In this document: positions 48,870 through 54,876 of the stretch, piece by piece
How positions within the stretch are numbered: position 1 is the first letter of the stretch
How the letters are laid out: each line of letters starts with the position of its first letter
Source: Fidelibacterota bacterium
GTDB lineage: Bacteria > Pseudomonadota > Alphaproteobacteria > Rhodospirillales > Rhodospirillaceae
DNA: 58,504 nucleotides
NCBI GenBank assembly: GCA_945903705.1
Contig: CAMDOZ010000005.1
Span: 1 to 58,504 of the forward strand
Direction of reading: 5' to 3'
The notes under the pieces: generated by a model
Seen by the model: the letters and a program-made list of their open reading frames with translations, nothing else
Told to the model about the DNA's origin: nothing
The model's database searches: none
Made by a program: the position numbers and the translations under genes

Positions 48870-49537
48870 GTAAGACGTCCGTGAGACCGAAGGCCGTCGT
48901 TCTGCACTCGGGCGGTCTCGATTCCACCGTGTGCCTTCTCCTCGCGCGGTCCCGCGGGCGGGATGCTTACAGCTTCGGCATCAACTACGGCCAGCGCCAG
49001 CAGATCGAGCTCGAATTCGCGAACCGCCAGTGCGAACGCTTCGGCTTCGAGCGCCGCATCGTAGACGTCGGCTGGCAAAAGCCCGAGATCCACGTTCCCA
49101 AAGACCGCACCGTCGCCGAGATGAAAGCGGGCATCGCGCCCACGTTCCTGCCCGGACGCAATGCAGTGTTCCTGGCGCTGGCCTGCGCCGAAGCCGCGGG
49201 CACGGGCGCCAGTGAAGTCTGGCTCGGGGTGAACGCCGTCGATTATTCCGGTTACCCGGATTGCCGGGGATCGTTCCTCGACGCCTTCCGCAAGATGTGG
49301 GCTGAAGCGGTGCCGACGCCGCCGCGCATCGTTGCACCCCTTGTGCAGCTCACGAAGCCGCAGATTGCAGCACTTGCGGACGAACTCGGCTTAAAGTCGG
49401 GCGAGACGTGGAGCTGCTATGCACCGGAGGAGAAGAACGGCGTCACACAGCCTTGCGGCCATTGCGACGCCTGCCTTCTGCATGCGCACGCCTGGCGCGA
49501 GGCGAAGATCGCGCCGGCCGGAAATCTCGAGATCTAG
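48866..49537 (+). CDS. queC: 7-cyano-7-deazaguanine synthase
   Basis: QueC converts the carboxy-deazaguanine to preQ0 with ATP and ammonia. The PP-loop is AVVLHSGGLDSTVCLLLA. INYGQRQQIEL follows, and the zinc-binding Cys cluster closes the protein (WSCYAPEE ... CGHCDACLLH). At 223 residues the length is normal. It is the last gene of the operon and converges on the TonB-receptor fragment with overlapping stops. Confidence 0.96.
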   Translation: MSKTSVRPKAVVLHSGGLDSTVCLLLARSRGRDAYSFGINYGQRQQIELEFANRQCERFGFERRIVDVGWQKPEIHVPKDRTVAEMKAGIAPTFLPGRNAVFLALACAEAAGTGASEVWLGVNAVDYSGYPDCRGSFLDAFRKMWAEAVPTPPRIVAPLVQLTKPQIAALADELGLKSGETWSCYAPEEKNGVTQPCGHCDACLLHAHAWREAKIAPAGNLEI

Positions 49538-50227
49538 AATCGCCCCGTCGCCGTAATCCCGAACGTGCGCGGCAGGCCCGGGAACGTCTCATTGAACCCG
49601 AGGCTCGCGTTGGCGAGGCCGGAGACGAAGTACTTTTCGTTGAAGAGGTTCTTGACCCAGAGACTGACGGTGTAGCGCTCGTTGGCGCTGCGTAAGGCCA
49701 CGCTCGTGTTCGCCAACCAATAGCCGTTCTCGTAGATCACGGGATTGTTGTCGGGCGTGAAATAGTGGCCGCCGGTGTAAGAGCCGTCCGCCTGGAGGCC
49801 GAGCGTATGAGCGCCGAGCGGGATGTCGTAACGCGCAAGGCCCGCCAACGTCAGCTTGGGCGAGGACGCCGTGCGGTTGCCGGCGAGGCTCGAGGCGGGA
49901 TTGCTGGGGTCGAACAGGAATTCGCTGAACTTCGCATCGAGCAGCCCGGCTTTCGCCTGGACGAACAGCGCATCGGTCGGCATGGCGTTGATCTCGAGCT
50001 CGGCGCCATAGACCCGCGTCTTCGCGGCGTTGGTGAGACTCTGGAGCGAGACCAATGATCCGGGGACCAGTTGCGAGACCTGTTGGTCCTTGAAGTCGTA
50101 GTAGAAAACCGCGCCCTCGAAGGAGAGGCGGCGGTCCGGGGTCGAACCCTTCACCCCGACTTCATAGCTGTCGACGAATTCCGGATTCACGATCGACGCC
50201 TCGGCCGGCGAAAACAAGGCGCCGCCG
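49534..50227 (-). pseudogene. TonB-dependent receptor, C-terminal barrel fragment only
   Basis: The frame encodes the last about 230 residues of a TonB-dependent outer-membrane receptor: NPEFVDSYEVGVKGSTPDRRLSFEGAVFYYDFKDQQVS, VYGAELEINAMPTD, then the final strands VSLWVKNLFNEKYFVSGL and the C-terminal aromatic RTFGITATGRF. The plug and most of the barrel, normally over 400 residues, are missing. The match stops abruptly at about 50225, where a LuxR fragment begins on the other strand. No signal peptide or start is available, so this is a remnant. Confidence 0.85.
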
Positions 50228-50230
50228 TGT

Positions 50231-50617
50231 GTGACCGTGCCGGTCCATGGACCCGGCGGCGAACTGGGCGTCATGTCGCTCTATTCGGACCTGAACGAGA
50301 AAGTTTTCGCGAACACGGTCGACGAATATCAATACGACGTGCACGTGCTGTCGATGCACTTCCACGACGCCGTGCAAAAGGCGTTAATGAAGGTCGAGAA
50401 GGTCCCGAAACCAATCCCGCTGACCGAACGCGAGGTCGAAATCCTTCAGTGGACCGCCACCGGCAAGACCGCGTGGGAAATCGGCTCGATCCTGAACATC
50501 TCGGAACGCACGGTGAATTTCCACCTGCAGAACGCCATGGGCAAGTTCGGCGTCCACAACAAGGTCCACGCCGCCGCGAAGGCGATGAGCATCGGCCTTA
50601 TTTCTTCCGCTAACTAG
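50231..50617 (+). pseudogene. LuxR-family quorum-sensing regulator, N-terminally truncated
   Basis: The sequence starts in the last strand of an AHL-binding domain (VTVPVHGPGGELGVMSLYSD), then gives a complete LuxR-type HTH (LTEREVEILQWTATGKTAWEIGSILNISERTVNFHLQNAMGKFGVHNK). About 130 N-terminal residues that bind the acyl-homoserine lactone are gone. The truncation coincides with the truncation of the TonB-receptor gene on the opposite strand. A GTG at 50231 or ATG at 50273 could start a short protein. HTH-only LuxR fragments can act without the signal, so residual function is possible. Confidence 0.8.
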
Positions 50618-50630
50618 CACTGCCACCTCT

Positions 50631-51992
50631 CTAGTGACGGCGCCGTGGCGACACTTTCGCCATGATGTCGTATTTCGGCCTGAGCGTGATCAGGTTTGAA
50701 AGCTCGGGCTCCAGGTCCGATGTGATCTTCACATCGAAGCGCCGCTGCATCATCGCGAGCAGGAATTGCATCTCCATGGTCGCAAAGGCCGACGCGACGC
50801 ACACGCGTGGGCCCGCTCCAAACGGGAGATAGGCGAACTTCGACCGTCTCACGGACTGCTCGGGCTCGAAACGGTCCGGATCGAAGCGCTCGGGGTCTTC
50901 CCACACACTCGGATTGCGGTGGATGAGGTACTGCGAGATCAGCACCGTGGTTCCCGCCTTGATGGTTTCGCCGGCGATATTGTCGTCGCTGATCGCCGTG
51001 CGCGCCACCCACCAGATCGGTGGCTTGAGGCGCGCGACTTCCTGCACGACGCGCTTGGTATATTCGAGCTGGCGCACGTCCTCGGCCACCGGGTCGCGGC
51101 CGGCGAGCACGGTGTCCGCCTCGTCGCGCATGCGTTCGAGCGCGGCCGGATTCTGCGCGAGCAGAAGGAAGGCCCAGCTAAGCGCCACGGCCGTGGTTTC
51201 ATGGCCCGAGAGGAGCAGCGTAAGCACTTCATCACGGAGCTGCTTATCGCTCATGGCCTCGTCGGTGTCGGCGTCGCGGGCGTCGATCAGCACGCCCAGG
51301 AGATCGTCCTGGCGCAGGTCGGCTTTGCGGCGCTCGTTGATAATGCGGCTGACGATCCGGTCCAGCGTATTGGCGGCGCCGTTGTAGGCGCGGTTTTCCC
51401 GCGTGGGCAGGATCTCGCCGAGCCGGGTCATTTCCCACAGGCGCTTGGCGGTAATTTCGTTGGCGACATGCAGCGCGTCCGAGATTGCGTTGGCCTCTTC
51501 GCGCGGCAGGCTGTTCCCGAACATCGTGCGCAGCGCGACTTCAAGCGCGAGGTAGGACATGTCGAGCGAGAGGCTAAACTCCTCGCCGCTTACGGCGAGC
51601 TTGTCCCACATTGCCACGTGATCCTTGATCACGTCGATCATCGTGCCACCCATCGCCTCGACGCGCTGGCGGTGGAACGACGGCTGAACAAGCTTTCTCT
51701 GGCGCGTCCACAGTTCGTCTTCGCTGATGAACAGGCCCTCGCCCAGAATGGGCTTGAACTTGTCCATCATCTTCGTCTTGCGATAGTTGCGATAGTTCGT
51801 CTGCAGGACGTGTTCGATGTGCTTCGGATGATTAAGGAGATACGCTGTGCTCATGAACATTCTCATTGGAACTAAATCGCCGTAAGTCTTGGCGACGTGA
51901 TCTAGAAAACCCAGTGTATTCGCCCGCAACTGGGGTATTACGCCCAGCAAGGGATACCCCTTGGGCCCGTTCTTCGCTTCCCGCCAAAACAT
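50631..51992 (-). CDS. Cytochrome P450
   Basis: The 453-residue soluble P450 carries the I-helix LLLSGHETTAVALSWAF (oxygen activation), the K-helix ExxR in QEVARLKPP, RFDPDRFEPE, and the haem loop FAYLPFGAGPRVC with Cys at about residue 398. The style is that of CYP4/CYP102-like fatty-acid or isoprenoid hydroxylases. It starts 39 bases after luxI on the same strand, so it is almost surely in the quorum-controlled transcript. No ferredoxin or reductase gene is nearby. The product may be a modified signal or a secondary metabolite. Confidence 0.92.
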   Translation of the reverse strand: MFWREAKNGPKGYPLLGVIPQLRANTLGFLDHVAKTYGDLVPMRMFMSTAYLLNHPKHIEHVLQTNYRNYRKTKMMDKFKPILGEGLFISEDELWTRQRKLVQPSFHRQRVEAMGGTMIDVIKDHVAMWDKLAVSGEEFSLSLDMSYLALEVALRTMFGNSLPREEANAISDALHVANEITAKRLWEMTRLGEILPTRENRAYNGAANTLDRIVSRIINERRKADLRQDDLLGVLIDARDADTDEAMSDKQLRDEVLTLLLSGHETTAVALSWAFLLLAQNPAALERMRDEADTVLAGRDPVAEDVRQLEYTKRVVQEVARLKPPIWWVARTAISDDNIAGETIKAGTTVLISQYLIHRNPSVWEDPERFDPDRFEPEQSVRRSKFAYLPFGAGPRVCVASAFATMEMQFLLAMMQRRFDVKITSDLEPELSNLITLRPKYDIMAKVSPRRRH

Positions 51993-52031
51993 TCAGGTCT
52001 CGGACTTTCAGAACGCCGAATTTACTCGCGG

Positions 52032-52670
52032 TTATGCTGCGGCCTTGAGCTCGGCTTCGTAGTGCATCATAGGCGCAGCCGCGAGGAGCTTAGCCTGGGC
52101 GCGGCGCTGATTCAGCTCGGAAACATCCGCGTAGCCGGAGACGGCGCGCGTGACGCCGATCTGCAGGGGCGGACCATAACGGTGCGAGAGCAGGCCCGCG
52201 CGCTTCAAGATGCGCTCGAAGCGGACATCGGAGACTGCGACGATGCGCGAGATATTGCGGCGTTTGGCAAAGGCTCCCAATTGCTCGAGCAGCATGTCGG
52301 TCACCATATTTATGGTGCCGAGGGATTCGTTGCCGATCACGCGCTTCGACACCGCGAAACGGCTGATCTCCCACACGTCGGGAGCTTCCGGTGCCGGCAT
52401 GCCGTGGAGGAGTTCGGGGAAAACGTCCTTCAGCATGTAGGGCCGCGTGGTGGGAAGCAGGCGCCAGGAGCCAAGCACTTCGCCCTGGTTTTCGCAGACG
52501 ATGTAGACGGGATCGAGATCGTCGAACATGTCACGCTCCTTGCCGCCGGCGGAGCCGACTTCCCAGGCAAGGCGTTCCTTGAAGACTTCGTGACGGAGTT
52601 TGAACATGCCCTCGAGCTTGCGAGAGGCCTCAAGCGTGTTTTCCGGCATTTCGATAATCGAAGTGAGCAT
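52032..52670 (-). CDS. Acyl-homoserine-lactone synthase (LuxI family)
   Basis: LuxI enzymes join an acyl group to S-adenosylmethionine to make the diffusible AHL signal. The family's invariant residues can be placed: Arg26, Phe30 and Trp36 in LRHEVFKERLAWEV, Asp50/Asp53 in FDDLDPVYIV, Arg70 in GSWRLLP, and Glu101/Arg104 in WEISRF. The start at 52670 follows GGGGGAA. The protein has 212 residues. The acyl chain cannot be predicted. A perfect lux-box palindrome is centred about 74 bases upstream, suggesting positive feedback. Confidence 0.93.
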   Translation of the reverse strand: MLTSIIEMPENTLEASRKLEGMFKLRHEVFKERLAWEVGSAGGKERDMFDDLDPVYIVCENQGEVLGSWRLLPTTRPYMLKDVFPELLHGMPAPEAPDVWEISRFAVSKRVIGNESLGTINMVTDMLLEQLGAFAKRRNISRIVAVSDVRFERILKRAGLLSHRYGPPLQIGVTRAVSGYADVSELNQRRAQAKLLAAAPMMHYEAELKAAA

Positions 52671-52997
52671 TGTTCCCCCGAACCGACTCACGAATGGTTT
52701 CGGGAACAGACCACCATATCGTTAAGGATCCAGGACCTGTCAGGACTGACAGGTCCCGCCATTTCCAGGCCGGTGCAGGCTCATTGTTATCGGCTAGCGT
52801 CAGCAAAAATAAAATGTCAATAACACTGTCTAATCAAAGGCTTAGGCTAGGCTTCGCTCGCCCCGCCGAGTCTCTGGGGAGTACTCGAAACGACCACTGC
52901 GACCCCTCGGACGCCACAGGTCTGTCTCTGTCAGGCCGGTGGATATAAGCCGCAAAAGGCACCGTCCGGGACAACACTTGGAACTTGGAGCAGGATC
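52671..52997. other. Divergent regulatory region of the quorum-sensing locus
   Basis: This 327-base gap between luxI (leftward) and the small-ORF operon (rightward) holds the lux-box palindrome at 52733-52756. An AT-rich stretch follows at about 52785-52845 (AAAAATAAAATGTCAATAACACTG), out of keeping with the GC-rich surroundings. GGATATAAGCC at 52941 could be the -10 of the rightward operon. A poorer palindrome-like CTGTCTCTGTCAGG lies at 52923-52936. No additional gene is convincing. Confidence 0.55.
52733..52756. promoter_or_regulatory. lux box: LuxR-type binding palindrome
   Basis: A perfect 24-base palindrome (11 + 2 + 11) contains the 20-base core ACCTGTCAGGACTGACAGGT at 52735-52754. 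It has the same ACCTGT...ACAGGT ends as the classic lux box. It lies 63-86 bases upstream of the luxI start, followed toward luxI by CCTTAACGATATGG, which could supply a -10 at a normal distance. LuxR-type activators bind here to switch on the synthase and P450. Confidence 0.8.
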
Positions 52998-53222
52998 ATG
53001 ACGCACCACCACAGCAAGCTGCCCCGCGTGCGGGCAGTGCGCACCGCCCACCCCTCGACGCGCCACAGCTATGCCGCCGCCGCCCCGACGCAGATCGCGG
53101 CCGCGCGGACGTCGACGACGCTAGCCATGTCCATGATGGTGGCCTTGCGCTACCTCGAGGGACGACCGAGCCGCCCGCCGGAACCTTCCGCAGACGTGAT
53201 CCCCCTCCCGGCTCTTTCGTAG
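52998..53222 (+). CDS. Small ORF 1 of the quorum-sensing locus, unknown
   Basis: The 74-residue ORF has a clear ribosome site (TTGGAGCAGG) before ATG 52998 and strongly GC-ended codons like its neighbours. It starts MTHHHSKLPRVRAVRTAHP, is basic and His-rich at first, has an Ala/Thr/Met middle (TSTTLAMSMMVALRYL) and a Pro-rich end. No family is recognised. It is first in a rightward set with small ORF 2 and the aminotransferase-like gene. It could be a small accessory protein or a precursor peptide; nothing decides between them. Confidence 0.55.
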   Translation: MTHHHSKLPRVRAVRTAHPSTRHSYAAAAPTQIAAARTSTTLAMSMMVALRYLEGRPSRPPEPSADVIPLPALS

Positions 53223-53236
53223 CCAGCGGGGCTCCC

Positions 53237-53461
53237 ATGCAGGAATTTCCGAGAACGGGCGGTACGTCGAATGACGGACGCGCCGCACCCCACGCTCGCC
53301 TGTTCGCCACCTTCAAATTGGCGACGCCCTACATCGAGATGGTGCAGCAGCGTACGGTGGCGGGCGAGGCCCGGGCGGCCGCCAACGTCAATCGCGTCGG
53401 CCTTGTGCCCGAGGACTTGAATCGCCAGGACCTGGACCTTCCGAGGCCGGACCACCCATGA
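53237..53461 (+). CDS. Small ORF 2 of the quorum-sensing locus, unknown
   Basis: A 74-residue ORF from ATG 53237, beginning MQEFPRTGGTSNDG and containing a possible helix (FATFKLATPYIEMVQQRTVAGEARAAANVNRVG). The end is acidic and then Pro-rich. The stop overlaps the aminotransferase start as ATGA, which argues that it is translated and coupled to that gene. No strong ribosome site is seen. It is not recognised as any family and is about the same length as small ORF 1, but with no clear similarity. Confidence 0.5.
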   Translation: MQEFPRTGGTSNDGRAAPHARLFATFKLATPYIEMVQQRTVAGEARAAANVNRVGLVPEDLNRQDLDLPRPDHP

Positions 53462-54876
53462 CGGTGGTTTCGCCAACCTCGGTTATCCGGGAGGCGCTCA
53501 ATAACCGTGCCGACCGCGCCCTGTCGGCGCTGGAAGCGCGCACGTGCCACTCGTGGAAGATGAGCCTCGACCGCACGAACGTCCTCCCCCGCACCGAGGA
53601 CTTCGTCGGAAATCCCGCATTCCATCTGTACATCCGTGAGGGCCTGGGCGCCCGGGTCGCCGACCTGGACGGCAATTGCTTCATCGATCTCAGCATGGGT
53701 TTTGGCGCGCAGCTCCTGGGGCACGGGGTGCAATCGGTCCAGGATGCGGTCGTCGCACAGGCGGCCCGCGGCTGGCACTTCGGCGTCGTGAACGAGAAAC
53801 AATTGGAGCTGGCCCGCCTCATCCAGGCGGCAAGTGCCGCCAACGAGCGGGTTGTGTTTTGCAATTCCGGCTGCGATGCAACGGCCTACGCGATGCGCGC
53901 GGCGCGCGCTTTCACCGGCCGCGACCTCATCGCCGTTTTCAGCGGATCATCGCACGGGACCCACGACTACGGCCTCGCGGGCGAGGAAGTTCGTCGTCAG
54001 ATGCCGGAGCCTGAGGAAAGCGGTGCGTTGTTCGCGCGCCCCTGGAACCGGCGCCCCCAACGTCACCCAGGCATACCGCAATCGGTGATGGATGCCAGCG
54101 TCAGCCTCACGTACGGCCACGCGTCGGCTTTCGATCAGCTCCGCCGGCGGCGGCGCGAACTGGCCGCCGTGATCGTCGAGCCCGTGCGCGCGCTCGATCC
54201 CAGCTTCGAGCATGCGAAGTGGCTGAATGAGCTGGCGAACGTCTGCGGCGAGACCGGCATTCTTCTGATCTTCGATGAGCGGCTTACGGGATTTCGTCTC
54301 GCCTACGGCGGCGCCCAGGAGCGCTTCGGCGTGATGGCCGATCTCGTGGCCTACGGCGAGAATATCGGGGGCGGCTTGCCGCTGGGCGCCGTTGCCGGGC
54401 GCGCGGACGTGCTCGGCAGTATTGCCGGCCGCGAGAGCCTGGCCCGCACGCTCACCGAGCGGGGGACGAGCGGGAGCATGCTGAGTATTGCCGCGGGCGC
54501 TTCAACGCTCGAGCAGCTTTCGACGCGGCGCACTACGCTATACCCAGCGCTTGCCGAGAAAGGCCGGCTGCTCGCCGAGACATTCAATTCCTTCGCCGAA
54601 CAGAACGACATGCCGGCGAGACTGAGGATCGCAGGGTCGATCTTCCGCATTCAGTTCAGGCGCCCCACCCACGCCGCGTCCGGCCGTAGCGGCTATCCCG
54701 CCGCCGAGGCGGCCTTCTATGCGCTCGCCCTGAGCAAGGGAGTCCTGGTGCACGCCTCGCGGCTTGCGTTCTTATCGGCCGCGCATACGGCGAGCGACGT
54801 CAACCAGGTAGCGGGCATTTTCCAAGGCGCGCTCACGGACGTCAAAAATGACGGGTTGTTCAATCCGAAGGCGTAA
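53458..54876 (+). CDS. Class-III aminotransferase-fold protein lacking the PLP lysine
   Basis: The 472-residue protein follows the glutamate-1-semialdehyde aminomutase fold: VADLDGNCFIDLSMGFGAQLLGHG, FCNSGCDATAYAMRAARAFTGRD, SSHGTHDY, ILLIFDERLTGFRLAYGGAQERFGV (the Asp that holds the PLP ring nitrogen). The cofactor lysine normally found just before the Gly run, as in GKxIGGG, is Glu301 here (AYGENIGGGLPLGAVAG; codon GAG at 54358-54360). It should not form the usual internal aldimine. Possible readings are a pseudoenzyme, a novel chemistry, or one point mutation (AAG to GAG). It overlaps small ORF 2. Confidence 0.85.
   Translation: MTVVSPTSVIREALNNRADRALSALEARTCHSWKMSLDRTNVLPRTEDFVGNPAFHLYIREGLGARVADLDGNCFIDLSMGFGAQLLGHGVQSVQDAVVAQAARGWHFGVVNEKQLELARLIQAASAANERVVFCNSGCDATAYAMRAARAFTGRDLIAVFSGSSHGTHDYGLAGEEVRRQMPEPEESGALFARPWNRRPQRHPGIPQSVMDASVSLTYGHASAFDQLRRRRRELAAVIVEPVRALDPSFEHAKWLNELANVCGETGILLIFDERLTGFRLAYGGAQERFGVMADLVAYGENIGGGLPLGAVAGRADVLGSIAGRESLARTLTERGTSGSMLSIAAGASTLEQLSTRRTTLYPALAEKGRLLAETFNSFAEQNDMPARLRIAGSIFRIQFRRPTHAASGRSGYPAAEAAFYALALSKGVLVHASRLAFLSAAHTASDVNQVAGIFQGALTDVKNDGLFNPKA

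Follow-up and report, generated by a model that had tools for sequence, protein, structure and literature searches.

The 58,504-nucleotide contig CAMDOZ010000005.1 (the window; one whole contig of a 3.4-Mb genome in 240 contigs, 93% complete) carries a locus for N-acyl homoserine lactone (AHL) quorum sensing, in which a lux box lies between luxI and a cytochrome P450 gene on one side and, on the other, two small open reading frames (ORFs), smORF1 and smORF2, with a gene for a class-III aminotransferase-like (AT) protein. As read from the alignments, this protein has a glutamate at the position of the lysine that binds pyridoxal 5'-phosphate (PLP), and its family has lost that lysine repeatedly; both observations are new here. 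The best explanation of the whole, to which we give an even chance, is a lineage-specific locus in which the P450, the small proteins, and the Lys-less AT-fold protein would be under LuxR-AHL control. The genome comparisons establish its sequence-based part, namely, a LuxI that is intact by its residues, a box between divergent operons that is conserved with luxI and luxR, and a right operon whose Lys-less AT gene bears the marks of purifying selection. No published description of the locus was found among the listings and abstract openings covered by our literature search.

Conservation of the locus among relatives

From the left, the locus consists of the C-terminal part of a TonB-dependent receptor gene (- strand), the C-terminal half of luxR (+), the P450 gene and luxI (both -), the lux box, and smORF1, smORF2, and the AT gene (all +). 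The first-pass annotation had this layout right: its coordinates, the 39 bases between luxI and the P450 gene, the two 74-residue ORFs, the ATGA overlap that couples smORF2 to the AT gene, and the facing directions all hold, and the luxR remnant beside the P450 gene is an addition to it. By the look of the ORF list, the remainder of the window is ordinary chromosome.

We compared the window with 317 genomes of its order, 73 of which belong to its family, and with 385 genomes of its class (G and L numbers denote individual genomes and loci). An orthologue of luxI (E up to 1e-88) was found in 20 of the 317 order genomes, all within the family; four more distant matches (E 1e-41 to 1e-44) lie in other families. 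The P450 gene adjoins luxI in 19 of the 20 genomes, the exception being G053. Leaving out weaker matches near 35% identity, as well as those of G002, G034, and G037 that fall within very long frames, an AT of the window's subfamily is present in 18 of the 20 luxI genomes (not in G057 or G009). It lies on the luxI contig in 16 of the 20, where the gene order is conserved, and on a different contig in G008 and G056. Among the 53 family genomes without luxI, four have such an AT, namely, G041 (at a contig end, with smORF1 adjoining), G006, G066, and G071. AT presence with and without luxI (18/20 versus 4/53) differs with a Fisher value of 2e-11, calculated over species that are not independent. 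The first-pass annotation had made its reading depend on a neighborhood kept in relatives, and this is what the search found. Together with the conservation of the box, the neighborhood gives good support to a conserved AHL locus with a probably bidirectional lux box.

The lux box and the two divergent operons

The box (ACCTGTCAG-GA-CTGACAGGT, 52735 to 52754, no strand assigned) and its reverse complement agree in 18 of their 20 bases. It had been called a perfect palindrome, which is true of its two 9-base arms (9/9) and not of its 2-base center. Its start lies 64 bases past the luxI start codon and 263 bases ahead of smORF1 (start to start), and it has the form expected of a lux box, that is, an inverted repeat of about 20 bases upstream of luxI that is conserved among relatives. 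The sequence ACCTGTCAGNNCTGACAGGT is present once in the window's genome. The exact box occurs in 17 of the 317 order genomes. In all 17 it adjoins luxI, and G049 alone has a second copy. A control pattern, the box read backward, was found in 0 of the 317. Since ACCTGTCAGNNCTGACAGGT is single in the genome and the backward control is absent, the box is beyond chance. Additional short blocks are conserved on both of its flanks in 17 aligned loci, which would fit one promoter per direction.

A box is visible in 19 loci, and it is exact in all 16 that have a full luxR. One mismatch is seen in G053 and G061, in which luxR is absent or in two frames, while the box of the window has none. These small numbers suggest that the state of the box and that of the receptor are linked and that at least some receptor losses may be real.

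A genome-wide scan for CTG-N10-CAG was uninformative (562 sites, below its control). When up to 3 mismatches to the box were allowed, five sites were found in the window's genome. The best extra box-like site is a pair of tandem palindromes (G000 contig C28:24764-24816, L191) flanked by genes for an efflux membrane-fusion protein and a hydrolase, upstream of the former. Similar sites recur in G044, G051, and G054, all without a luxI match, and we therefore rejected the pair as an AHL site. Separately, the second exact box of G049 (L152 4174-4193) lies about 12.5 kb from the first and 25 bases from a gene start; the product of that gene, by eye, resembles a membrane acyltransferase. G058 has a 2-mismatch box about 12 kb from luxI.

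The AT-like protein has lost its catalytic lysine

The AT gene (53458 to 54876, + strand) encodes a class-III, fold-type I domain (Pfam Aminotran_3, PF00202; 1.3e-41, 143 bits). Its nearest solved relatives are the AMT domain of the mycosubtilin synthase MycA (6kfm) and glutamate-1-semialdehyde aminomutase (GSAM), with MycA AMT at 1.2e-60 by sequence and 2.3e-32 by fold; MycA AMT is also the best fold match of the predicted structure (mean predicted local distance difference test score of 86.1). Unlike these enzymes, the window AT stands alone, would be controlled by quorum sensing, and has Glu301 (codon 54358 to 54360, + strand) aligned to the Schiff-base lysine of the MycA AMT and GSAM chains. 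In a 42-row alignment, lysine is at least 90% conserved at this position. A base-calling error is ruled out because G047 and G048 have the identical glutamate. The NCBIfam hemL model gives the window AT 252 bits, far below its cut-off of 527.

Within the family, residue 301 is K in 12, E in 3, D in 1, N in 3, and R in 3 of 22 rows, and it is K in all six rows from outside. Each of the four non-Lys states is restricted to its own branch of the AT tree (14 of the 25 inner branches starred, 5 open), which requires at least 3 changes between K and non-K, or 4 by residue. Furthermore, five K-bearing members of the window's genus show 37 to 41 gaps against the window at positions 164 to 301, compared to 12 in the intact outside copies, so that 25 to 29 loop residues are missing in them. 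The R copies show 45 to 50 gaps in the same region. GSAM has a gating loop. Altogether, none of the 11 genus members has kept both the lysine and the complete active-site loop in its AT. When residue 301 was read by pattern in 80 named AT relatives, it was Lys in 55 and Arg in 1 (the G056 copy), the pattern failing in 24.

Pairwise dN/dS, the ratio of nonsynonymous to synonymous substitution rates (Nei-Gojobori; 3 of 13 AT pairs saturated), was 0.14, 0.20, and 0.07 in the E clade and 0.17 and 0.24 in the R clade, compared to 0.21, 0.21, and 0.25 for K-bearing, loop-deleted pairs and 0.34 and 0.20 for intact ones. The Lys-less values do not exceed those of the Lys-containing pairs, and the Lys-less copies are therefore not visibly relaxed. 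Between the window and other clades, AT values were 0.23 to 0.42; luxI is under stricter constraint (0.05 to 0.13). The catalytic lysine has thus apparently disappeared from more than one lineage, with selection on the gene maintained, and the window AT, a pseudoenzyme candidate, is most likely a selected pseudoenzyme.

These data bear on two other views of the protein. It might be merely decaying and functionless after the loss of its pathway, and indeed, catalytic residues were lost repeatedly, G057 has lost the AT altogether, and the copies in G006 and G066, which have no luxI, are truncated to 360 and 207 residues. However, the frames are open in the luxI genomes, with dN/dS of 0.07 to 0.25 as in Lys-intact copies, and the AT is retained in 18 of 20 of them, so that we regard decay as unlikely. 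We think it similarly improbable that the AT still runs a reaction dependent on PLP or pyridoxamine 5'-phosphate without the lysine, like ColD-type sugar dehydratases, which have another residue in its place. ColD lacks the lysine. The fold and the glycine-rich PLP environment are kept, as are the pyridine-binding aspartate of the window (D273, in FDE) and, in almost every row, a flanking D or E, but the lysine position varies among E, D, N, and R across sister clades with no single substitute base. Moreover, the window lacks the ring-side Tyr of YHG, which is kept in G065, G070, G071, and the outside rows, and eight other copies have lost loop residues.

The first-pass annotation had suggested a small pathway, for a secondary metabolite or a modified signal, that includes the aminotransferase-like protein. 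A pathway with an aminotransferase step is not supported. With the PLP lysine missing from the window AT, and the lysine or part of the active-site loop from sister loci, transamination is unlikely in the window's genome.

Distant AT relatives and their neighborhoods

Two loci, those of Magnetospirillum sp. UT-4 (L058) and a Rhodospirillales metagenome-assembled genome (L055), share with the window an AT of the subfamily (40 to 42% identity) beside luxI with a small ORF in between, in the order LuxR-LuxI-small ORF-AT. They differ from it in that their ATs have the lysine and YHG, their luxI is only 42% identical, no P450 match was found in them, and the small ORF is not recovered by the smORF1 model. 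Both small ORFs (L055 7768-7965, L058 7799-7970) contain an A-I-x-Y-L stretch reminiscent of A-L-R-Y-L in smORF1.

Outside the family, an AT was found in 6 further genomes of the 385 class genomes, with no luxI match in the 12 to 17 kb fetched per locus. Two of these loci (L181 and L183) have a common acyl-CoA-ligase-like/SDR/WS-DGAT-like block (Pfam was run on the L183 genes), which is a hint of acyl substrates only.

LuxI and the P450

LuxI (52032 to 52670, - strand, start set at the ATG at 52670) matches Pfam Autoind_synth (PF00765; 3.8e-39, 134.6 bits against a cut-off of 24, residues 13 to 189), and its best PDB relative is LasI (1ro5, 8e-38). The residues R26, F30, W36, D47, D50, R70, E101, and R104, which we take to be the defining set of LuxI AHL synthases, are all found in the window and are invariant in 13 rows. 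By these features it is an intact LasI-like synthase. The locus resembles other LuxI/LuxR loci, LasI being the nearest solved LuxI, in its synthase with the usual conserved residues, in the GerE helix-turn-helix (HTH) LuxR of the relatives, and in its lux-box palindrome. In contrast to them, it has a single box for two divergent operons and a receptor that is cut in the window's genome, and the genes conserved alongside encode a P450, two families of small proteins, and an AT-fold protein.

The P450 gene (50631 to 51992, - strand; Pfam p450 3.7e-91) is the second gene of the luxI operon. The heme motif FGAGPRVCV and the I-helix motif SGHETT are both present in the window; by our own patterns, the former is found in 13 and the latter in 11 of 15 P450 rows. 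The solved relatives nearest to it include the fatty-acid hydroxylases CYP102 and CYP4B1, whereas its top PDB matches are other putative bacterial P450s (7wzl, 3dbg). CYP102A1 oxidizes AHLs. The window's P450 may possibly act on the signal. In another family, locus L165 (G191) has luxR, luxI, and a P450 gene in a row, this P450 being 29% identical to the window's, and the pairing of luxI with a P450 may extend more widely.

The small ORFs

Both smORF1 (52998 to 53222, + strand, 74 residues, MTH start and ALRYLxxR motif) and smORF2 (53237 to 53461, + strand, 74 residues) show a coding substitution pattern. Against G047/G048, substitutions per codon position were 0.28/0.17/0.42 for smORF1 and 0.30/0.18/0.48 for smORF2, compared to 0.32/0.38/0.29 upstream, and dN/dS was 0.31 to 0.32 and 0.37 to 0.38, respectively. 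The sequence sets were chosen by eye (18 for smORF1, 11 for smORF2). Leave-one-out models recovered 16 of the 18 smORF1 copies (not those of G045 and G052), with the window's as top match (E 4.7e-6) of 1009 frames. For smORF2, 7 of 11 copies were recovered; those of the window, G047, G048, and G052 were missed. Membership of the window's smORF2 (56 to 67% identical in G047/G048) in a genus-wide family is therefore unsupported. smORF1 is present also in G057, where the AT and smORF2 are missing. Over the 317 genomes its model gave 24 matches at E 0.01, of which the 16 strong ones are its own rows; the remaining 8 (5.8e-5 to 0.0055) are at other places and were taken for chance. This search scored at most 19 candidates per genome, and absence elsewhere is not proved by it. 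Neither small ORF matched Pfam, NCBIfam, or PADLOC (a defense search).

The pathway hinted at by the first-pass annotation could also be read as a small natural-product pathway under quorum-sensing control, in which the small ORFs would be peptide precursors modified by the P450, as in ribosomally synthesized and posttranslationally modified peptides. The small ORFs, the AHL control, and a weak NCBIfam match of the P450 to ApyO (176 bits, cut-off 525) would agree with this. However, other P450 families score higher, and the P450 gene is in the luxI operon while the small ORFs are in the other. In addition, only the P450 and the small ORFs were seen in the conserved block, with no protease, transporter, or other maturase, and the conserved part of smORF1 is a short helix-like motif with a variable tail. 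We consider such a pathway very unlikely.

The receptor gene is cut in the window

The luxR of the window (50231 to 50617, + strand; GerE 1.9e-22) is a C-terminal half comprising the end of the AHL-binding domain, with an Autoind_bind match only at positions 103 to 149, and the HTH; it does not make a complete AHL receptor. It corresponds to residues 123 to 249 of the 250 aligned to the G045 LuxR. Likewise, the TonB-dependent receptor gene (49534 to 50274, - strand) retains residues 541 to 771 of the 771 aligned to the G047 receptor. Near 50228 (50220 to 50240) the window runs from this gene straight into luxR residue 123, cutting both, while relatives have about 2.3 kb extra at the junction and both genes whole. 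A search of the window's genome for another luxR N terminus or AHL-binding domain found none (Autoind_bind, E 0.001). Of the 20 luxI loci, 17 have a LuxR that aligns over its full length, the exceptions being the window (cut), G053, and G061 (two frames). In G053, luxR is absent from the 19 kb fetched around the locus; there, luxI is adjoined by a 31-residue receptor remnant (L047 7000-7850), the P450 gene is also absent, and the box has one mismatch.

The P450 (84% identity to G045/G052, 60 to 62% to G047/G048) and the luxR remnant are nearer to G045/G052 (50231 to 52000), whereas the TonB receptor and the AT are nearer to G047/G048. By these affinities the locus is a mosaic, made by recombination or by a two-strain assembly, and the junction would be either a real deletion or a misassembly.

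Proposed function and its alternatives

In the proposed mechanism, LuxR-AHL would bind the box and turn on both luxI-P450 and smORF1-smORF2-AT. The P450 would oxidize an acyl chain, that of the AHL or of a related lipid. The AT-like protein would no longer transaminate, its fold being kept as a ligand-binding or partner-binding protein; its ligand might be the acyl product once handled by its Lys-bearing ancestors, and it would act with smORF1. That the ancestral AT worked on a signal-linked acyl substrate is a guess, made because two distant Lys-bearing ATs adjoin another luxI and because the MycA AMT domain acts on 3-oxoacyl chains. In the window's genome, the cutting of the receptor to its DNA-binding half may make expression constitutive or abolish it, provided that the junction does not stem from misassembly. 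A LuxR with an N-terminal deletion can act without signal.

Several observations weigh against this explanation. The luxR of the window is broken. G057 (100% complete) has luxR-P450-luxI-box-smORF1 without AT or smORF2, and G053 has neither P450 nor luxR beside luxI; neither the AT nor the P450 is therefore indispensable. Two losses and one regain of the lysine would also give 3 changes on the AT tree, and catalytic activity may persist in the copies that have both the lysine and the complete loop (G041-43, G065, G070, G071). The parts missing in G053 and G057 would also suit an ordinary LuxI/LuxR locus in which the P450, the small ORFs, and the AT are functionally unconnected passengers. This seems improbable to us in view of their co-conservation and of the common box over five genus groups.

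The locus might, more specifically, be a quorum-sensing module built around a pseudoenzyme. An ancestral beta-aminotransferase on acyl substrates would have been put under AHL control, would have lost catalysis in more than one lineage, and would have been kept as a binding partner that, together with smORF1 and smORF2, senses, sequesters, or presents the P450-modified signal. Both the step to a binding role and the joint action of these proteins would have to hold, and we propose this version tentatively, as a possibility rather than an expectation.

If the proposed explanation is right, a single bacterial family would offer a natural series that begins with an intact enzyme and ends with a catalytically dead one, with quorum-sensing control unchanged, and the reason for keeping a dead enzyme could be tested with side-by-side orthologues. 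The locus further contributes smORF1, a family of small proteins associated with a single luxI lineage, and cases in which a signal synthase appears to persist with a damaged receptor.

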